From: a virus
Virus record (IMG/VR): IMGVR_UViG_3300024520_000614
Span: 1-20,009 of that record
Strand: one strand, 5' to 3'
DNA length: 20,009 nt
The notes under the pieces: generated by a model
The model's input: the letters and a program-made list of their open reading frames with translations, nothing else
The model's database searches: none
What the model was told of the DNA's origin: nothing
Position numbers and translations under genes: made by a program
Part shown: positions 8,933-18,180 of the stretch, one piece after another
How the letters are laid out: the number at the start of each line of letters is the position of its first letter
Numbering within the stretch: position 1 is the stretch's first letter

Positions 8933-9804
8933 AGATTAGCTATGCCTCCTCTATAATAATGATGACTACCATGTCCTTGATAACTTCCTTTATCTGAGCT
9001 AGTTGATTTACCTTGAGTTGTGTGTTGACCTTTACTTCCGCCTCCCATATTCATCTGCCCTGGAGTTGGACCTTTTGGAGTTATAACTCTTTCACTTGGA
9101 GGTTTATTTGTATTGCCTGCAGCAATGTCTCGTATTTCTTTTTGTTTAGCTATTTGGCTTTCAGAATAATAATCCTTCGTTCCATATTTATTCATCCACT
9201 TCTGTGCCATTGCTTGTGAAGTAGGAGAACCATATGCAGACATTCCTGGTGCATTCATTCCTTGGAAAGGTCCGCTTGTCATTGTGTATGGATTTTGTTG
9301 TGTGCCTATTCCTATCGGTTGGCCCATATTACCGGTTTTAAAAAATTGTTGATTCATTGCTTGTTGTTGTGGAGTTAATTGTTGTCCTTTAAATGCTTGC
9401 TGTGCTAAACTAAAATATGGATTCCCTATTATAGCACTCAGTGCCATACCAGGTAGTTCTTTTACATAATCAACACCCCCTGTAAATTTATCTGCGACGT
9501 TGGTTGCAAATTTTTTAATCCCTTCAATTCCTTCAATTCCTTCAATTCCTTCAATCCCTGCGGTTTCTTTTTCTCCAAACACTTCATTAAACTCTGCTTC
9601 CGTATATTTATTGCTATAAGGAGAGTCTTCATAAGTTAACTTGTTTTCATCAATAACAACGTCTCCTCCATTATCAAAAGGCAATCTCATTATCCCACCA
9701 TTAGCTGCATGAATTTTACTTCCATAGGTATCGGCCCAGTCTCTTGCGATCTCTGGTTCGTTAGCCCATAGGTATCTTCTTTGTGCTTCTGATTTAAACG
9801 GCAT
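8920..9804 (-). CDS. KSEAQRRYLWAN-family marine phage virion-region protein
   Basis: The protein begins MPFKSEAQRRYLWANEPEIA and continues RDWADTYGSK. I know this N-terminal module from many uncultured marine phage proteins, where it precedes variable low-complexity regions. It is followed by GGIMRLPFDNGG (36-47), four Gly-Ile-Glu triplets near residue 85-95, a hydrophobic helix around LPGMALSAIIGNPYFSLAQQ, a Q/G/M-rich stretch, then a Ser/Gly/His-rich tail that ends YYRGGIANLWPR. The GGIxxL pieces match motifs in other proteins of this operon. The function is unknown; a virion-associated, possibly intrinsically disordered, protein is inferred. It starts at a TAATG overlap with the tail-hub-like gene, with GGAGGAAG as the ribosome binding site, and overlaps the 54-residue gene at its end. 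Confidence 0.6.
   Translation of the reverse strand: MPFKSEAQRRYLWANEPEIARDWADTYGSKIHAANGGIMRLPFDNGGDVVIDENKLTYEDSPYSNKYTEAEFNEVFGEKETAGIEGIEGIEGIEGIKKFATNVADKFTGGVDYVKELPGMALSAIIGNPYFSLAQQAFKGQQLTPQQQAMNQQFFKTGNMGQPIGIGTQQNPYTMTSGPFQGMNAPGMSAYGSPTSQAMAQKWMNKYGTKDYYSESQIAKQKEIRDIAAGNTNKPPSERVITPKGPTPGQMNMGGGSKGQHTTQGKSTSSDKGSYQGHGSHHYYRGGIANLWPR
9522..9557 (-). repeat. Tandem 9-bp repeat encoding Gly-Ile-Glu triplets
   Basis: The plus-strand unit cttcaattc occurs three times exactly (9522-9530, 9531-9539, 9540-9548), with a fourth, one-base-different copy at 9549-9557. On the coding strand it gives GIEGIEGIEGIE. Because the unit is nine bases long, slippage would change length without breaking the frame. 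Confidence 0.85.
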
Positions 9805-11972
9805 TATCTTCTTCCTCCTGCATGTACATCTAACCTAAAAGTTCCCATTTTCCAATTAGTATCTACTGCTGTATTTGATATTTTTACTGCAACCGATCGT
9901 CCTCTTGCTCTGCACGATTTATAGTTAGTGCTCGAAGTAATAGTAAAAGGGCCTAAGCTAGAGCTAGCTGCTGTTTGGTTAGGAAAATTTCTTAAATCTA
10001 ATTCAACTATTGTATCGCCTGTTTGAGCAAGAAAGTCAGGTAAAAATCTACTAACCCTCATGATATGCTCTCCATCTCCTCTAAAGGTAATTCCTTCTCT
10101 TTGATCTTGAGTAATATCAAAATCACCAGATAATATATTAGCAGGAATAGCAGCAGTTGATCCTCCTTTAATTTGATTTAAGCCTGTTTCGTGTTCAAAG
10201 TAAGTTGAAATTCCATCTGTATTTCCTACGGTATCACAGGTATCGGTACCTGCATCATATTGAGTTGCATGAGGTAAACCAAAAACAGCTGAGTCTACCC
10301 ATGTCGTTCTAGGATAAAGGGAGTTGGCGTTTGTGTACCAAATAGGTCTTTTTGCGGTTGAATCTAAATAACTATATATCACACATCTATTTACTACGTT
10401 GGAACCTGATGTTGGATAAAACCACATCACCTCTCCAAACAAGTTATTAATTCCACAATAGATAAATTGATTTGAAGTAGTGTTAAGATCGTCATAAACA
10501 TAATCTTCTACTAAGCAGTCCATCGATTCTAGTTTACCAGTAAATTTGAAAAAACCATTATCAGACATCCAGTAAGCAGCACCGTCTACTTCAACAGCTG
10601 CATTCTTTCCTATCAATCCACAGTTGGTTCCCACTTGTTCATAGGCGAAAGTAAAAGGTTGACCTACAAATCTCATGGTAAATAATGAAGTATCCGTCCA
10701 TACGTAAATTGCATTTCTACCTAGTTTACTTCCCATGATCCGTGATCCGGCAGCCAGTCTTTGTGTGCCAGCGCTATTGATTGCAGTAGGTGCCCAGGTA
10801 TTAATATCCTCTTGAGAAGAGAATCTTATAAACATCTCATCTTGAGTTGTGGTGTCTCCAATTGTTGTTTCTGTTCCAAATAAAACTAAGTGACGATCAG
10901 GTGTTGATACTAACATATCACGTGATGCGGTCGGTGCACCACTAACAATGGTTGCTCTGGTTGCTGTTGCATTACTTAAATCTGAATCCCATTCAAATAC
11001 AGCGCCATTAAAAATTAAAGCTAAAAGAGTACTTCCTAAATTATCCAAGGACCATAGACCAGGCTCTGCAACTTTATCAGTTGTAGAAGAGGCTTGTCCC
11101 CATCCACTATAGTCAGTAATATTTGTGATGGTCGCTCCATTACTATGAGTAGCGGCTGTTGTTCCGTTAACTCCTCTAACGACTCCGCTTAATACATTTG
11201 AACTAATTCCCGTGTAACTTAAATCCTCTGTCCCTATTCTTATTTCACTAGTTCCGCTGGTCGGGAAACCGGTTGAACTGGTTAAGGTAATTCCACTTGT
11301 CGCTGCAGCATCCGTGATGGCTCCATTTAAAGTTGTTGTTTGCGGAGCTGTTACGGTTCCTGAATATTGAGATATACCCCATCCAAAAACACCAACCTGT
11401 TCAGCTGGTCCTACTGGATAGTAAAATTTAACAGAACAATCTCCATTAGTAGCCGTTGCACTTGCAGTAGACCCCATAGTAATAGTAACTGAGGTAGTGT
11501 CTACTACTTCAGTTATCATAAAAGTTTTATCATCAAAATCAGAAGCTGAATAACCAGAACCTGTTGGAGGTGTAACACTTTCCAGTAATAAAATATCTCC
11601 TGCTGTCATTCCAGTTGTAGAAGATAAAGTAATTGTAAGAATAGCAGAGCCTGAAGTAGAAGCTAGTTTGTCAGTTAAAGCTCCGAAGTCAGTTTTAATT
11701 GGGTGAATATCATAGTAGGCCTCACCTGTGTATGCATATAAAATTCGATTGGTTCCTATAATGGAGTATTTAATACCCTCTTTATTAACCATTTGATGGA
11801 GAGCTCTAGCAGCACCTGTTAAAGAAGTGCTCCCTAATTGAGACCATCCTCCTATTTTTTCAGGAGTGCCATATCTAAAACGAACGTTCTCACCCCCCGT
11901 CCACTGTGCTTCAGCGCCGGTAGGTGTAACTTGTTTATTAAACCCTGGTAGAAATCCTATTTTTTGTAGCAT
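9804..11972 (-). CDS. Large tail hub/nozzle-like virion protein (722 aa)
   Basis: The N-terminus GFLPGFNKQVTPTGAEAQW, then GGENVRFRYGTPEKIGGW (26-43), is a pattern I associate with marine podovirus tail structural proteins resembling P22 gp10-type tail hubs. The rest is rich in repeated beta strands with W, Y and GT turns, including IIGTNRILYAY (71-81) and LALIFNGAVFEWDS (317-330), compatible with a beta-propeller. Two extra beta domains seem inserted: residues about 105-190, and about 205-290 with GFPTSGTSEIRIGTEDLSYT followed by VVRGVNGTTAATHSNGA. The second is a module I know from other phage structural proteins. It is the first gene after the oxygenase cassette and may have its own promoter and 5-prime hairpin. 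Tail role is probable; the exact position in the tail is inferred. Confidence 0.6.
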   Translation of the reverse strand: MLQKIGFLPGFNKQVTPTGAEAQWTGGENVRFRYGTPEKIGGWSQLGSTSLTGAARALHQMVNKEGIKYSIIGTNRILYAYTGEAYYDIHPIKTDFGALTDKLASTSGSAILTITLSSTTGMTAGDILLLESVTPPTGSGYSASDFDDKTFMITEVVDTTSVTITMGSTASATATNGDCSVKFYYPVGPAEQVGVFGWGISQYSGTVTAPQTTTLNGAITDAAATSGITLTSSTGFPTSGTSEIRIGTEDLSYTGISSNVLSGVVRGVNGTTAATHSNGATITNITDYSGWGQASSTTDKVAEPGLWSLDNLGSTLLALIFNGAVFEWDSDLSNATATRATIVSGAPTASRDMLVSTPDRHLVLFGTETTIGDTTTQDEMFIRFSSQEDINTWAPTAINSAGTQRLAAGSRIMGSKLGRNAIYVWTDTSLFTMRFVGQPFTFAYEQVGTNCGLIGKNAAVEVDGAAYWMSDNGFFKFTGKLESMDCLVEDYVYDDLNTTSNQFIYCGINNLFGEVMWFYPTSGSNVVNRCVIYSYLDSTAKRPIWYTNANSLYPRTTWVDSAVFGLPHATQYDAGTDTCDTVGNTDGISTYFEHETGLNQIKGGSTAAIPANILSGDFDITQDQREGITFRGDGEHIMRVSRFLPDFLAQTGDTIVELDLRNFPNQTAASSSLGPFTITSSTNYKSCRARGRSVAVKISNTAVDTNWKMGTFRLDVHAGGRR

Positions 11973-11993
11973 AAAAAAACCTGTTTATCAGGT
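11973..11993 (-). promoter_or_regulatory. Hairpin plus T-run directly before the tail-hub gene
   Basis: On the minus strand ACCTG-ATAAA-CAGGT forms a 5-bp stem, followed at once by six further T residues and then the ATG at 11972. This could be a weak intrinsic terminator for the oxygenase cassette. The only SD-like bases of the tail-hub gene (AGG) lie in the 3-prime arm, so it could equally be a translation control hairpin. The stem is short, so either reading is uncertain. Confidence 0.35.
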
Positions 11994-12038: not shown

Positions 12039-12668
12039 TTACTGGACAAGATCTAGATATATATTACCAGAAACAGTAATTCTAGTTTCTTCGGTACCAT
12101 AAAAAGGATAAACTGAATGAAAAAGAGAAGCTGGAAAAATTAAAACTTTTCCTTCCCATCTTTCGTCAGGAAAATAAAGTTCTTCAGTAAAAAATTCATC
12201 CGGTCTCTCACTACCTTGATGAAAAAAAGTAACCCCTCCTGCATTATTCAAATTACTATGAACACCAGGAGCAATTTTATGCATTTCTTCTATTTTGAAT
12301 GGAACTTTAACAAAGATAATAAAACTAAAACAACCATTGTGTTGATGGATAGGATTAAATTCATATTGCTTCATATAATTAACCCACATATTTTTCAATA
12401 TAAGTTTAACTTTATCCCCTTCCCGTTGAGATCTTCTTTTAAGAAGTCCAGGAATATATGCCGTAGTAAAAGGGTCATACATTTGAATCATATTAGAAAA
12501 GAAATCTTGAAAGATATGTGCGTGTTCTGCAAAGCCTTCTTCTCTTACAATATTTCCAGCTAACTCCTGATTGTAGGGTTTATGTTTTTCCTTGATTATC
12601 TCTTTTAATTTATCAAAAAGATTTTTAGGCATCATGGTAGACAATATTATTTTTTCGTGAGCTTTCAT
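12039..12668 (-). CDS. Putative 2OG-Fe(II) oxygenase with HxH motif (third of the cassette)
   Basis: This 209-residue protein has a helical N-terminal third, then the metal-site-like motif NPIHQHNGCFSFIIFVKVP (H108 and H110) and the distal segment LIFPASLFHSVYPF with H184, followed by ETRITVSGN with R196. This H-x-H ... H ... R layout on a double-stranded beta helix is what I know from phage and bacterial putative 2OG-Fe(II) oxygenases of the TIGR02466 type. The position that is normally Asp or Glu in HxD/E enzymes is His110, so the exact iron ligands are uncertain. Such enzymes couple decarboxylation of 2-oxoglutarate to hydroxylation of a substrate; the substrate is unknown. The ATG follows the preceding TAA directly (TAAATG). 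It ends the oxygenase cassette and is followed by 66 non-coding bases. Confidence 0.65.
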   Translation of the reverse strand: MKAHEKIILSTMMPKNLFDKLKEIIKEKHKPYNQELAGNIVREEGFAEHAHIFQDFFSNMIQMYDPFTTAYIPGLLKRRSQREGDKVKLILKNMWVNYMKQYEFNPIHQHNGCFSFIIFVKVPFKIEEMHKIAPGVHSNLNNAGGVTFFHQGSERPDEFFTEELYFPDERWEGKVLIFPASLFHSVYPFYGTEETRITVSGNIYLDLVQ

Positions 12669-13415
12669 TTAATCAAAATTTTTCTTATTCCAGATTTTAT
12701 TTTTATAATTATCTAACATATTTTTAAACAGTATTAAACGGGGCGTATGAGCGAAAACTTCTTCCTCTTTCTTTTTTTTATAATTAACTTCTATCTGCCA
12801 ATCATCTCTTTTAAAGGGTATTACCATGGCCAATGGAGTACCAGCGGGAATTGTTTTAGTTGTTCCTTCAAACTTTTTAGTTGCGCATGGAAAATTTATA
12901 GCTATGTGAGGATAGATATCCGTATCTACAACTCCGCTAAAAATTCTAAAATGAGGTAAGGTATGATTAAGAGGGTTAAGAAATATACAGCTGTATCCTG
13001 GGGGAGTAGTAATCAGCCAAGGAGAAATTATTTTAAGAGCTACATGTATTTCATCAGAATTATATCCATCTTCTGAAAATTGATTTGGACTATGAGAATC
13101 TATAGCTAGACCCTTTATCGTTAATATTTCATTTACTTGGGGAGCATAACTAACCTCTAGGTTCCATACTCCTTCCTTCTGATATTTTTTTATATGTATA
13201 TCCCATCCAGTAGATATGGTGTAACCCATACTTAAAGCATCCAGAAAAGGCATGCACTTTTTAACAGACGGTTGTGAGGCGTCTCTGTTATGTAAAGTTT
13301 CTATTTTTTTATACCATTCCGGTATAACTTTTTTAGAAGGTAAAGGAGGATTTAAAAAAGAATCGGCATCTTCACCCAGATATGTATCAAATATTATTTT
13401 TTTCTTTGTAAACAA
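12669..13415 (-). CDS. DUF6065-like protein of unknown function in the oxygenase cassette
   Basis: The predicted 248-residue protein contains LPSKKVIPEWYKKI (about 26-39), VKKCMPFLDALSMGYTIST (51-69) and a beta-rich second half with ISPWLITTPPGYSCIFLNPLN, GVVDTDIYPHIAINFP and TIPAGTPLAMVIPFKRDDW. The order CxPfl...GY/W...TPPGyS...NP.N...GVVDTD...IPaGTPla.viPfkRd resembles my memory of the DUF6065 family; no activity is known to me. The start is likely TTG at 13415: no ATG occurs near the beginning, an in-frame TGA lies 30 bases upstream, and AGG is 9 bases before the TTG. The gene overlaps the second oxygenase by 22 bases and abuts the third. Its fixed place between oxygenases suggests it shares their substrate or complex, which is inference. 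Confidence 0.55.
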   Translation of the reverse strand: MFTKKKIIFDTYLGEDADSFLNPPLPSKKVIPEWYKKIETLHNRDASQPSVKKCMPFLDALSMGYTISTGWDIHIKKYQKEGVWNLEVSYAPQVNEILTIKGLAIDSHSPNQFSEDGYNSDEIHVALKIISPWLITTPPGYSCIFLNPLNHTLPHFRIFSGVVDTDIYPHIAINFPCATKKFEGTTKTIPAGTPLAMVIPFKRDDWQIEVNYKKKKEEEVFAHTPRLILFKNMLDNYKNKIWNKKNFD

Positions 13416-14008
13416 TGTGGTATACCTAAAAACTCCCTTCCATCAAATTTATTTTGTTTGGCATTTTTATGAGTAGCATCATTATAGTGTAAAAAAAGTT
13501 GAGCACATTCTTGACCATGAAAGGCATAGCGCCAATGTTCTATTTTTTCACCTTTATATAATAGCATATCCCCTATATTTAAGTCTATTCTAGTTCCCTC
13601 TTCATTTGTTCCTTCTGTCTTGTCAACATAAAGAGGCCATCTAGTTCCTCCTAAATGAAGAGTAGCAGATATCTCACATGAAAATCTATCTTTGTGTCTT
13701 TCTAATACATCTCCATTTTTATATAATCGTGAATAAGTATAAGTTTCATATAGCTTTAAATCTGTGGTTTTTTCTATAAGAGGTTTTAGTTTTGTAAGTA
13801 AAGAATCCATTGCTGGATCTCCATAACAGGAATAAGTATTTTCAACTTGTGCATCATTAAAAGTACCCCAATACTCTACAAAAGGAGAAATAAGTCTTGC
13901 TCCTAACATAAGCTCAAAACCTTTTCTTTTAAGTTTAAAGTAATTATAAACAAAATCACACAGCTCTTTTGAAACAGCTTCTCTTAAAATAATATAATTA
14001 TCTTTCAT
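13394..14008 (-). CDS. Putative 2OG-Fe(II) oxygenase (second of the cassette)
   Basis: Counting from the ATG at 14008 the protein has 204 residues. It shows the HxD iron motif in LERHKDRFSCEISATLHLGG (H105, D107) and a distal histidine in GDMLLYKGEKIEHWRYAFHG (H158 most likely, H164 possible), followed by QLFLHY. The H-x-D ... GD.llY.G...HWR ... FLHY layout is typical of 2OG-Fe(II) dioxygenase-fold proteins in marine phages. I choose the ATG at 14008, since it gives an ATGA overlap with the upstream oxygenase and the protein then starts MKDNYIILREAV; a TTG eight codons upstream is open but less likely. The end overlaps the DUF6065-like gene. Only about the motif positions resemble the first oxygenase, so this is a different subfamily rather than a recent copy. 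Substrate unknown. Confidence 0.75.
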   Translation of the reverse strand: MKDNYIILREAVSKELCDFVYNYFKLKRKGFELMLGARLISPFVEYWGTFNDAQVENTYSCYGDPAMDSLLTKLKPLIEKTTDLKLYETYTYSRLYKNGDVLERHKDRFSCEISATLHLGGTRWPLYVDKTEGTNEEGTRIDLNIGDMLLYKGEKIEHWRYAFHGQECAQLFLHYNDATHKNAKQNKFDGREFLGIPHCLQRKK

Positions 14009-14595
14009 GTAAAAAAAGGCCCTCCCCACCAAGCGACTAATGAATGTCTAGTTCCTTTGGTAACAGGTTTGACTCTATGCCAAATAATAGAAGGAAAAAT
14101 AAGCATGGTTCCTTGTTCTTTAAAAGCATCTTTACTTAATAAAGGAGGAGCATACTTTCCATCCGGGGAAGAATGTAAGCTTCTAAATTCTATATCACCT
14201 CCTTCATATTCTGATGGAGCACTTAAAGGAATAATTAAAGATAGTTTTCTACAATAGTTATTATTAATATTGAAAGGCTCATCTTCTTTTATATCCATAT
14301 GCCAATCATAAAATTGACCAGTACTATATTTTGTAAACTGTATGTCTTCCACTTCGCCTATATTATATTTAAAAATATCTCGATTAGCTATATTAACTGG
14401 CTCTAAGATCCAATCCCAAACCCATTTAGCATTTATCCAACCTATGTCAGAATCTCTTACTTCTTTTTTTGTGCGCCCTCTATCCTTACCAATCCTTCCA
14501 CTTTCAACTTCTTGCTGTTTACCATACTTAATAAATTGATCGCATATGTGCGGAGGAATTGCTTGCTTCCAAAAAACATAATCTTTTAATAACAT
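14005..14595 (-). CDS. Putative prolyl-4-hydroxylase-like 2OG-Fe(II) oxygenase (first of the cassette)
   Basis: This 196-residue protein has the full facial triad of a 2OG-Fe(II) dioxygenase: H99 and D101 in QFYDWHMDIKED, H173 in LIFPSIIWHRVKPVTKGTRHSL, and R183 ten residues later as the expected 2-oxoglutarate anchor. FTKYSTGQFYDWHMD and SLIIPLSAPSEYEGGDIEF match the P4H/PKHD-type (PiuC-like) pattern known for peptidyl-proline hydroxylases and relatives. It is the best supported enzyme of the window. It is the first gene of the cassette, separated from the fiber chaperone by 56 bases with a hairpin and promoter-like signal, and its stop overlaps the next oxygenase (ATGA). A protein substrate such as a fiber protein is attractive but unproven; a host metabolite or nucleic acid base is possible. 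Confidence 0.8.
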   Translation of the reverse strand: MLLKDYVFWKQAIPPHICDQFIKYGKQQEVESGRIGKDRGRTKKEVRDSDIGWINAKWVWDWILEPVNIANRDIFKYNIGEVEDIQFTKYSTGQFYDWHMDIKEDEPFNINNNYCRKLSLIIPLSAPSEYEGGDIEFRSLHSSPDGKYAPPLLSKDAFKEQGTMLIFPSIIWHRVKPVTKGTRHSLVAWWGGPFFT

Positions 14596-14651: not shown

Positions 14652-15035
14652 CTAAGGAACTCTACCGCTACTTATGCCATCCATTTGTGGCCACGTGTCA
14701 TCTGTAAGTGCCTCTTGCGTTGTTACGTCTCTTAAGGCTTGTCTATAAGTTCTAATATCTGCTTGAAAAGTAGCGTCATCTTTATAAGGAGAATCTGGGC
14801 CTAACATCCAATCAGTGTTATCTAATTTTGCATTTCTTAAAGCTCTAACTTCATTTACATCTTCCCATTTTTTGAATTCATATAATGTTTGAGTTGCTGG
14901 ATCTAACCACCAATTTTCTTCTACACTATCATCGGGACATTCTATAAAGTGTGCCGCTTCAGCTGGGTTTGAAGGCAAAGCATCTTCAACTCTCATTACT
15001 CTATATGTTTCATTATGTACTTCAATGTATTTCAT
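14652..15035 (-). CDS. Phage tail assembly chaperone-like protein
   Basis: The second half of this 127-residue protein, RALRNAKLDNTDWMLGPDSP ... FQADIRTYRQALRDVTTQEA (about 64-110), is the signature R..RL..tDW...pDs......a.YRqALRDv of the phage tail assembly chaperone family (Pfam Phage_tail_APC, PF16778, by memory). The first half is acidic and contains WWLDPATQTLYEFKKW. Such proteins help fibers or tail parts fold and are usually encoded directly after the fiber they serve. Here the upstream gene is the glycine-rich fiber, two bases away, which fits well. Absence from the finished virion is expected for a chaperone but cannot be seen from sequence. The 56-base gap after it ends the fiber module. 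Confidence 0.75.
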   Translation of the reverse strand: MKYIEVHNETYRVMRVEDALPSNPAEAAHFIECPDDSVEENWWLDPATQTLYEFKKWEDVNEVRALRNAKLDNTDWMLGPDSPYKDDATFQADIRTYRQALRDVTTQEALTDDTWPQMDGISSGRVP

Positions 15036-15037
15036 AA

Positions 15038-15688
15038 TTAAGCTACAAACTCCACTACAACCACTCTACCCGGTCTTCCATATTTATCAACTGGTCCTGC
15101 CGGAGCATTTCCACCAGTTCCTATAGTAACAGTATGAGTTGTGGGTGCATACTGAGGTGAATTATAATAAGCTGCTGCTACACCACCAGATCCTGCGCCT
15201 CTAGTTGGTTGAGAGTGTGAATTTCCTCCATAGCCAGCACCATCCAATACATTTATATTATTAGTAGGGCGCCAGTTATTTGGACTTACTTGTGCTCCAA
15301 CTGTTCCACCACTAGATTGTTGAGCAGAATTATTCGCACCTACAGCTTTACCATGAGACCAAAAAACACCAGTACTAGAATTTGTACCAGCACCGCCAGC
15401 AGGCGCACCCGGTCCTGATTTTTGTCCACCAGGAGCAGATAATAAATTTCCAAAATTTGTTGCACTTCCAGGATTTCCTTGGTGTCCACCGCCACCACCT
15501 ACAGCCATAGCAAAACAAAATTGTGTGCCTGGATTAGGTGTAAAAGTTCCACTTGTTTCATATGTAGTTGTTACGTATGTTCCACCACCAGCAGAACCAG
15601 AAGAGGCAGTAATAACTCTACCATCTCCATCGACTGTGATAGTTGATGATGTATAAGTACCTTTTGCTAGTTTAATTATTCTAGGCAT
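15038..15688 (-). CDS. Glycine-rich tail fiber / adhesin-like protein
   Basis: Residues 1-60 look like a beta-stranded attachment part (MPRIIKLAKGTYTSSTITVD, ETSGTFTPNPGTQFCFAMAV). From VGGGGGHQGNPG (63-74) to about residue 195 the chain is dominated by G, A, S, N and P, with motifs such as APGGQKSGPGAPAGGAG and GAGSGGV. It closes with the beta segment TVTIGTGGNAPAG and YGRPGRVVVVEFVA. This arrangement, including the final GrpGrVvVvEf, is typical of the glycine-rich domain at the tips of phage fibers that recognise the host surface. The tail chaperone gene follows, as is usual for a fiber. Host receptor binding is inferred. A GGAGGAG ribosome binding site precedes the ATG. Confidence 0.75.
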   Translation of the reverse strand: MPRIIKLAKGTYTSSTITVDGDGRVITASSGSAGGGTYVTTTYETSGTFTPNPGTQFCFAMAVGGGGGHQGNPGSATNFGNLLSAPGGQKSGPGAPAGGAGTNSSTGVFWSHGKAVGANNSAQQSSGGTVGAQVSPNNWRPTNNINVLDGAGYGGNSHSQPTRGAGSGGVAAAYYNSPQYAPTTHTVTIGTGGNAPAGPVDKYGRPGRVVVVEFVA

Positions 15689-16867: not shown

Positions 16868-16909
16868 TTTATATTTTGTATTATACACAATGTCAACATC
16901 CATTATCAA
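16868..16909 (-). promoter_or_regulatory. Two overlapping sigma70-type promoters before the fiber gene
   Basis: On the minus strand, TTGACA (16896-16891) is followed after exactly 17 bases by TATAAA (16873-16868). Interleaved with it, TTGATA (16909-16904) is followed after 18 bases by a perfect TATAAT (16885-16880). The two predicted transcription starts would fall about 12 bases apart, near 16873 and 16861, leaving a 5-prime leader of roughly 20-35 bases before the ATG at 16838. This lies in a true gap. It implies reading by the host RNA polymerase. The upstream -35 box overlaps the stop of the repeat protein gene. Confidence 0.65.
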
Positions 16910-18180
16910 GAAGTTATACGAGTATAACCGGCTGATTGAGTTGCTGTCACCCCACTATAACTCGCACTCTGAGTTCCAGTAACTCTACTATATCCTACAG
17001 GAGCTAGATTTCCTAGAGAAACTGTTAAAGCGTCAGGAGCAGTTAATCCAACCACATCAGCAGGAGTAAGTGCACCTACTGAAGATGTTAAACTTAGTCC
17101 AGTTAAAGGCACTCCAATTTCAAGAACAGGGGTTCCTAGAGAACTTGTTAAAGCAGATGGAGCCGTAATAGTAACTAATTGAGTTTCAGTTATAGTTATT
17201 TCCCCAACACTTGCAGTAGCACCTACACCATCTATAGCGTAAGTCATTTGATGTGTTATAGAACCGACCGAAGCAGTTGCACCAAGTCCTGTTAAAGGCG
17301 CTCCTTCAGCTATAACTACTGATCCAACAGCCGTTGTACCTACCCCAGCTGTACTAATTGGAACTCCTATTTCTGGAATAATAGATCCTACAGAAGCTGT
17401 TGCACTGACACCACTTAAACCAATTGCCATTTCAGTTGGAGTAATAGCCCCGACTGAAGCAGTTGCACCAAGTCCTGTAGGTTGAACTAATTTATTAAAT
17501 GAATCTCCCCATGGTTCTTCTCCCCAACCATTTCTACCCCAACCAACTAAAGTTCCGGCATTATCAAAATCCCCTACGTTAGATGTTAAAGTGGATGGTG
17601 CTGTTAAAGTTGCAAGGGTAATAAGATCTAAAGTTAATGAACCTAATGAAGATGTTAAAGTTGAAGGAGCAGTTAAAGCAACTTCCATTATATCTTTTGC
17701 GTCTACACTACCAACACTAGAAGTGGCACCGAGACCAGTTAAAGCAACTGAATATTCTACACCCCAACCAGAATTACCCCACTCTTGTCTACCCCAACCT
17801 TCTTCATTGGCTGCTTCTAAAGAACCTACTGAAGATGTTAAAGTTGATGGTGCGGTTAAAGTTGTGATAGAAGTTAGATCAAGAGTTAATGATCCTAATG
17901 AAGATGTTGCCGCAATACCAGTTAAATCTGCTGTTATAAATTGAGCAGCTGTTACACTACCAATTGAAGATGTTAAAGCTGATGGTGCACTTAATGCAAC
18001 TGAATATTCTACACCCCAACCAGAGTTGCCCCATTCTTGTCGACCCCAACCTTCTATATTATGAGCTTGTACAGCTCCTATTGAAGATGTTAAAGTTGAT
18101 GGTGCAGTTAAAGATAAAGCTACTGTCTCAGATTGCCAAGTGTTGGCTCCCCAAGTATTATTGCCCCAGGTTGCTGCCAT
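16906..18180 (-). CDS. Repeat-rich beta virion protein (about fifteen 20-residue repeats, W boxes)
   Basis: This 424-residue protein consists almost entirely of short repeats in two flavours, TAPSTLTSSxGS and TGLGATASVGS, each followed by a few variable strand-like residues; I count about fifteen units. Four Trp/Gly boxes are set between them: WGNNTWGANTW (5-15), GWGRQEWGNSGWG (44-56 and again 128-140) and GWGRNGWGEEPWG (213-225). The last 30 residues change to three short YSxVTxTQS-like units. There are almost no charged residues and no cysteines. Similar TGVSATxSVG repeats occur in marine phage structural proteins, so a fiber or surface lattice protein is likely. Its start codon and ribosome binding site are inside a perfect hairpin with the previous stop, which suggests coupled translation. 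Unit number may vary between relatives. Confidence 0.65.
   Translation of the reverse strand: MAATWGNNTWGANTWQSETVALSLTAPSTLTSSIGAVQAHNIEGWGRQEWGNSGWGVEYSVALSAPSALTSSIGSVTAAQFITADLTGIAATSSLGSLTLDLTSITTLTAPSTLTSSVGSLEAANEEGWGRQEWGNSGWGVEYSVALTGLGATSSVGSVDAKDIMEVALTAPSTLTSSLGSLTLDLITLATLTAPSTLTSNVGDFDNAGTLVGWGRNGWGEEPWGDSFNKLVQPTGLGATASVGAITPTEMAIGLSGVSATASVGSIIPEIGVPISTAGVGTTAVGSVVIAEGAPLTGLGATASVGSITHQMTYAIDGVGATASVGEITITETQLVTITAPSALTSSLGTPVLEIGVPLTGLSLTSSVGALTPADVVGLTAPDALTVSLGNLAPVGYSRVTGTQSASYSGVTATQSAGYTRITS
17744..18055 (-). repeat. Near-identical 60-bp direct repeats inside the repeat protein
   Basis: Plus-strand bases 17744-17803 and 17996-18055 match at 56 of 60 positions and lie 252 bases (84 codons) apart. 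All four differences are silent: Arg aga/cga, Glu gag/gaa, Gly ggt/ggc, Asn aat/aac. Both copies encode GWGRQEWGNSGWGVEYSVA. Confidence 0.9.

Follow-up and report, generated by a model that had tools for sequence, protein, structure and literature searches.

We identified four overlapping or abutting genes that fill positions 12039-14595 of IMG/VR record IMGVR_UViG_3300024520_000614 (20,009 bases, analysed in its entirety and referred to here as the window) as a small version of a gene island that is real, conserved, widespread and highly variable, and in which divergent oxygenase-type genes occupy a fixed slot beside tail fibre genes. The window derives from a tailed phage, whose relatives point to a marine origin. 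Ocean viruses commonly carry phage 2-oxoglutarate (2OG) oxygenases and flavin halogenases as unexplained auxiliary genes. The best single explanation of the island, which we hold tentatively, is that it is a polymorphic tailoring set that modifies the phage's own adhesion fibre, hydroxylation coming first. All four open reading frames (ORFs) are on the minus strand and are transcribed in the order g4, g3, g2, g1; g4 and g3 overlap by 28 nucleotides and g3 and g2 by 22, and g2 and g1 abut. The unit is set apart by 56 nucleotides from a Phage_tail_APC gene on the fibre side and by 66 nucleotides from the nearest virion gene on the other. This layout agrees with an earlier account made from the letters alone (the sequence-only reading), which had described a compact set of three oxygenases and a DUF6065-like gene set off by gaps.

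A fixed slot with a variable gene set

We fetched related loci with four queries, namely g2, g3, the virion gene that flanks the unit and an island halogenase, and defined a flank-selected set by the virion gene (PHROG_3287) alone, independent of oxygenases. At least one oxygenase-type gene was present in the slot in 36/37 flank-selected loci with a visible tail anchor, counting the doubtful family c13. When c13 was left out, flank-selected islands had a mean of 4.1 oxygenases, with at least three in 34/41 and none in 4. Oxygenase ORFs amounted to 267/381 within the slot, taken from the fibre genes to the virion flank, versus 17/446 elsewhere. Gene order was also conserved: g4 lay upstream of g3 in 192/214 cases and never on the opposite strand. 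Oxygenases were found within six genes of the halogenase in 73/78 loci (g3 in 60, g4 in 65), a fraction that is an upper estimate as the 78 loci are the closest relatives of one island halogenase. The co-occurrence in marine phages that the sequence-only reading anticipated was thus recovered, as were its three distinct oxygenase subfamilies, which fall into the separate families Oxy_3 (g4), PHROG_2954 (g3) and Oxy_5 (g1). Its inclusion of the DUF6065-like gene g2 holds for the repertoire as a whole, although the gene is optional (6/41 flank-selected islands).

The repertoire extends beyond oxygenases, with island ORFs of the Trp_halogenase, Sulfotransfer_3, adenosine-phosphosulfate (APS)-kinase-like, cytidylyltransferase-like and Carbam_trans types. 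The island of cyanophage Syn10 combines two halogenases and a DUF6065-like gene with several genes of the Oxy_5 and Oxy_3 families, one of the JmjC type, DUF6445 and a g3 homologue, and the Syn10 halogenase VirX1, which sits in such an island, matches 6qgm over its whole length. Further examples occur in HTVC008M, Mosig, S-RIM44, S-CREM1, S-SCSM1, S-PM2, S-RSM4 and S-CAM8, and the g4/g3 pair is also present in HTVC033P, HTVC023P and HTVC008M. One ORF (L138:5438-6796) fuses a sulfotransferase to an Asp_Arg_Hydrox (aspartyl/asparaginyl β-hydroxylase) domain, which suggests that hydroxylation and sulfation can share one pathway. Both this fusion and the larger islands, with their sulfotransferase, carbamoyltransferase and halogenase genes, are compatible with enzymes that act in sequence on a common substrate, the stepwise modification proposed by the sequence-only reading. 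Elsewhere, a sulfotransferase-like ORF, a DUF6065-like gene and a kinase/adenylyltransferase fusion resembling those for synthesis of 3′-phosphoadenosine-5′-phosphosulfate lie in a row (L021:8523-10617), with a Gly-rich fibre gene close by.

The content of the island was linked statistically to its fibre side. In partial Mantel tests, island content correlated with the fibre-side gene (r 0.23, p 0.001) more than with the other flank (0.12, p 0.04), and the same held for the sequences of g4 (0.44 versus 0.14) and g3 (0.23 versus 0.06); g3 sequence also correlated with g4 sequence (0.74). Gene sets varied even where the phage flank was near-identical to that of the window: 161 pairs with a flank bit ratio above 0.85 were on average no more similar in their islands (0.36) than pairs overall (0.36), and only four of them had identical sets. 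Mean island similarity was 0.70 for the 16 pairs with a similar fibre-side gene and a distant flank. DUF6065 was rare with the c6 fibre type (1/16 versus 49/70, p 3e-6). The fibres that neighbour islands contain about 30% Gly, and Gly-rich fibre genes adjoin the island or lie at most two genes away in HTVC008M (where the island is on the opposite strand), Mosig, S-RSM4, S-CAM8 and Syn10. Cases in which the island is absent together with a Gly-rich fibre were too few to compare. Collagen-like Gly-x-y repeats were found in 0/167 Gly-rich fibre sequences, and we therefore make no argument from collagen-type hydroxylation. One family of Gly-rich fibres (c4fib, 29 loci, for example L003:1932-3407) carries a recurrent NTPPx[S/D]PPQG motif; all loci with this motif also hold g3, although g3 is common throughout the set.

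Fold, profile and active-site residues of the gene products

The product of g4 (14005..14595, minus strand, 196 amino acids) matches Pfam PF13640 (2OG-FeII_Oxy_3; 1.9e-14, 54.8 bits, cut-off 27) and PHROG_61 (3.9e-34), and its sequence matches in the PDB include prolyl 4-hydroxylase (P4H) and PiuC. H99, D101, H173, R183 and S185 are invariant among 36 aligned sequences. With the profile, the iron triad and the 2OG-binding RxS all present, its sequence assigns it to the 2OG/Fe(II)-dependent oxygenase superfamily as a PKHD/P4H-like member. A defence or anti-defence function was considered and dropped, as a PADLOC search returned only a generic 2OG profile, for g4. The product of g1 (12039..12668, minus strand, 209 amino acids) matches PF13759 (2OG-FeII_Oxy_5; 8e-12, 45.9 bits, cut-off 27) and PHROG_81 (5e-29). 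It has an HxH...H...R arrangement (H108, H110, H184, R196) with His in place of the acidic ligand of HxD, and in a family of 28 relatives both His of HxH, the distal His and an Asn are invariant and the Arg is present in 86%. We regard g1 as a putative 2OG/Fe(II) oxygenase. The residue numbers given by the sequence-only reading for g4 and g1 were exact, whereas its H105/D107/H158 in g3 are H113/D115/H166 when counted from an upstream TTG start.

The product of g3 (13394..14032, minus strand, 212 amino acids, TTG start) had no Pfam match and matched PHROG_2954 (1.9e-46), and in many records its homologues are annotated as ferrochelatase. Its AlphaFold2 model (mean predicted local distance difference test score, pLDDT, 92.7) gave 668 Foldseek matches in the PDB at E ≤ 0.001, and those listed at the top were all 2OG/Fe(II) oxygenases. 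The best was 4iw3, the P4H of Pseudomonas putida with EF-Tu (E 1.5e-9). In VIA-align comparisons, SnoN reached Z 16.6 and PHD2 and P4H about 15.5, with 164-185 residues aligned, so that protein prolyl hydroxylases are among the closest folds, and SnoN, HalD and related small-molecule enzymes are also among the matches. The HxD...H triad and fold are shared with P. putida P4H and PHD2-like enzymes, and g4 matches P4H/PKHD by sequence; however, g3 is only about 12-16% identical to prolyl hydroxylases and lacks their canonical 2OG Arg. Across 46 homologues H113, D115, H166 and H182 are invariant, and no Arg is conserved at +9 to +12 after H166, where Q178 and H182 are conserved instead. Other 2OG oxygenases anchor 2OG by other residues, and R102 is a possible alternative anchor. 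The iron-site residues that the sequence-only reading pointed to are intact in all three genes, with HxH in place of HxD in g1, but the canonical 2OG Arg is missing from g3. By its modelled fold and HxD...H triad, g3 belongs to the 2OG/Fe(II) oxygenase superfamily. None of the 46 homologues matched a ferrochelatase Pfam profile (0/46, E ≤ 1), and because the predicted fold is that of an oxygenase and the triad is invariant, we rejected ferrochelatase as the identity of g3 and conclude that the published label of the family is very probably wrong.

Several other observations concern the g3 family. PHROG_274, a family named 'DNA endonuclease V', also has an HxD...H...R pattern and looks, from its residues, like another oxygenase family under a misleading name. 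The names of PHROG_2954/3531 and PHROG_274 (for example L046:3112-3798 and L057:3453-3938) have spread into GenBank records. Small basic ORFs of 52-58 amino acids with Lys-Lys ends directly precede g3 in some loci (L042:5302-5478, L143:6740-6916, L002:9326-9484). A bacterial origin of the module received no support from the g3 profile, which yielded 16 loci from 84,980 genomes, many on phage-like contigs. One of these homologues (L281:7956-8627) lies between nonribosomal peptide synthetase (NRPS) and polyketide synthase (PKS) genes in the cyanobacterium Brasilonema and is a candidate natural-product oxygenase; neither this locus nor a lone, chromosomal-looking g3 copy (L280) gave a substrate clue.

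The product of g2 (12669..13415, minus strand, 248 amino acids, TTG start) matches PHROG_7084 (1.4e-41) and, weakly, DUF6065 (15.9 bits, gathering cut-off 26.6), which 17/23 of its relatives match at E ≤ 1 (best 3e-8). Its AlphaFold2 model has a pLDDT of 79, and the top 50 Foldseek matches (best E 1.9e-3) comprised dUTPases, dCTP deaminases and complexes of these enzymes; many dUTPases aligned in VIA at Z of about 10 (best 10.3) over 114-130 residues. Trimeric dUTPases are thus the best and nearly the only fold matches of g2, but identity is about 10-17%, g2 has extra helices and the catalytic motifs are not recognisable. In the alignment inspected, PRSG and the C-terminal motif are absent and only GIVDTD and the following GxPxVQ resemble dUTPase motifs, and PF00692 was matched by 1/23 relatives at E 0.27. 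We conclude that g2 is dUTPase-like in its predicted fold, an assignment that stops short of dUTPase identity. In haloviruses, relatives of g2 neighbour thymidylate synthase, and in S-RIM4 ribonucleotide reductase is close by; in Syn10, S-RIM44 and S-CREM1 they come directly after a halogenase, and the S-CREM1 copy is annotated 'triphosphate nucleotidohydrolase'. Our guess is that g2 might bind, or act as a scaffold for, a nucleotide or modified residue. In one locus (L026:6043-10657) an oxygenase-type gene lies among three DUF6065-like genes, and a short halogenase-like flavin adenine dinucleotide protein is encoded on the other strand.

A possible fibre substrate weighed against other targets

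The correlation between island genes and the gene on the fibre side is consistent with the fibre as target. We infer that the oxygenases would use Fe(II), and presumably 2OG and O2, to hydroxylate side chains, and that in larger islands the new hydroxyls or aromatic rings could then undergo sulfation, carbamoylation or halogenation. As substrate, the phage's own adhesion fibre or a partner protein, encoded next door, is the most likely, so that a swap of the enzyme set could alter fibre surface chemistry, and thereby receptor binding or evasion, with the fibre gene unchanged. A broader proposal, possible but more doubtful, is combinatorial: swappable hydroxylases and optional halogenases, sulfotransferases and carbamoyltransferases would decorate receptor-binding fibres, and such a protein would be the natural substrate of VirX1-type enzymes. 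If true, phages would diversify their surface and host range by this route as well as through changes in sequence.

Several points weigh against a fibre substrate. We know of no modified virion protein. The lack of the usual 2OG-anchoring Arg means that activity of g3 is not certain, and the presence of a homologue in an NRPS/PKS cluster (L281) indicates that the family can act on small molecules. The Trp content of fibre-region proteins does not vary consistently with the presence of halogenases (lower in c6, slightly higher in g10), and a Trp-rich fibre was dropped as the halogenase target. The loci used to train the hidden Markov model families had been selected with g3 and g2, so the tests are partly circular and favour finding these genes again. 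Finally, recombination breakpoints on the other side only could yield the same fibre-side correlation, which therefore supports a fibre substrate without proving it.

The strongest rival, which we consider unlikely, is that the products of the island build or tailor a natural-product-like small molecule or peptide, such as a halogenated, hydroxylated or sulfated compound, for release during infection or at lysis; the fibre-side site would then be no more than an insertion hot spot. Halogenase, sulfotransferase, carbamoyltransferase and 2OG oxygenases are the usual tailoring set of biosynthetic clusters, and the Brasilonema g3 homologue between NRPS and PKS genes, the fold matches of g3 to SnoN, HalD and similar enzymes and the acceptance of diverse free aromatics by VirX1 (PMC8407142) all point this way. 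However, no enzyme that would build a scaffold, no carrier protein and no export gene was seen in the islands, sets of the size of g4-g3 have no obvious precursor, and island content follows the fibre side. Somewhat less likely again are targets in the host, through hydroxylation of a translation factor or a drawdown of 2OG that shifts nitrogen signalling. The top Foldseek match of g3 is a Pseudomonas P4H in complex with EF-Tu and 2OG modulation has been proposed in cyanophages by Sullivan et al. 2010 (PMC3037559), but a fold match says nothing about the substrate, and 2OG could be depleted without a large number of divergent enzymes and without halogenases or sulfotransferases. Moreover, the islands occur in phages of SAR11 and cyanobacteria alike, whose nitrogen control differs. 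We consider it improbable that the island serves to modify phage DNA or its nucleotide precursors, a reading in which g2 would act on nucleotides as a dUTPase-like enzyme. The fold of g2, the proximity of its relatives to thymidylate synthase and ribonucleotide reductase genes and the existence of base-modifying 2OG oxygenases (TET/JBP) would suit such a role; g1 and g4, however, match Oxy_5 and Oxy_3, g3 matches no base-modifying family above threshold, g2 is without canonical dUTPase motifs, and sulfotransferase and carbamoyltransferase do not fit. A role in haem or iron metabolism, the interpretation of Wittmers et al. 2022 (PMC9599517) in which 2OG oxygenases work with a phage ferrochelatase, agrees with the label on many g3 homologues but can practically be discarded given the strong oxygenase fold of g3, its invariant HxD...H and the ferrochelatase profile result (0/46).

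Parts of the island have been described before. Wittmers et al. 2022 reported eight non-orthologous 2OG oxygenases co-located with 'ferrochelatases' in pelagiphages, every ferrochelatase being accompanied by an oxygenase (PMC9599517), and the HTVC023P-type pelagiphages of that study have the same g4- and g3-type genes as the window, co-located in variable order. They read g3 as a haem enzyme with oxygenases nearby but not adjacent, whereas here g3 is itself assigned to the oxygenases, the slot beside the fibre genes is fixed, and the repertoire takes in DUF6065, halogenase, sulfotransferase and carbamoyltransferase. Islands with numerous divergent oxygenases likewise occur in cyanophages (PMC3037559, PMC9964418, 6QGM); in those of Syn10, S-RIM44 and S-CREM1, a DUF6065-like gene comes after a halogenase, with oxygenases and a g3 homologue further on. 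Sullivan et al. 2010 listed the families and proposed 2OG signalling (PMC3037559), and ten oxygenases and PrnA were reported in S-CREM1 but not treated as a unit (PMC9964418). The cyanophage papers treat the genes as separate auxiliary metabolic genes for 2OG signalling, DNA repair or pyrrolnitrin protection. Among the open-licence papers searched, we found none that corrects the ferrochelatase label, none on DUF6065, none on fibre modification by phage 2OG oxygenases and none that joins oxygenases, halogenases, sulfotransferases, carbamoyltransferases and DUF6065-like proteins as a fibre-linked island. The suggestion of the sequence-only reading that the system is undescribed thus survives in part: the co-location of oxygenases with 'ferrochelatases' (PMC9599517) and the many-oxygenase cyanophages (PMC9964418, PMC3037559) are published, but the fold corrections, the wider toolkit and the fibre linkage appear to be new. 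In a 2024 time series (PMC11561400), seasonal viruses were enriched for phrog61 and phrog2954, which was interpreted as manipulation of metabolism. Should the island act on fibres, its genes would be infection machinery, not metabolic genes, and the substrate question would be testable in cultured phages. Regardless of the fibre reading, replacing 'ferrochelatase' by oxygenase and DUF6065-like by dUTPase-like fold changes published interpretations.

Flanking genes of the window

The fibre-side flank of the unit is a Phage_tail_APC tail fibre assembly chaperone gene (14652..15035, minus strand; PF16778 5.8e-11, PHROG_4912 4e-12). Next to it, 15038..15688 on the minus strand encodes a Gly-rich fibre- or adhesin-like protein with a weak Gly_rich_2 match (0.0024), the counterpart of the Gly-rich fibres beside other islands and the candidate substrate in the window. 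On the other side lies a 722-residue virion structural protein gene (9804..11972, minus strand; PHROG_3287 3.5e-97), which the sequence-only reading had called the tail hub, a role that is not proven. Between the unit and this downstream gene is a terminator-like hairpin with a T-run (11979..11993, minus strand), one of 2 such hairpins found versus 1.9 expected, a count at chance level. Promoter-like sites were at or below shuffle level and gave no sign of a promoter belonging to the unit. Farther into the fibre region, a protein encoded at window positions 16906-18180 contains repeated WG..WG..WG stretches.

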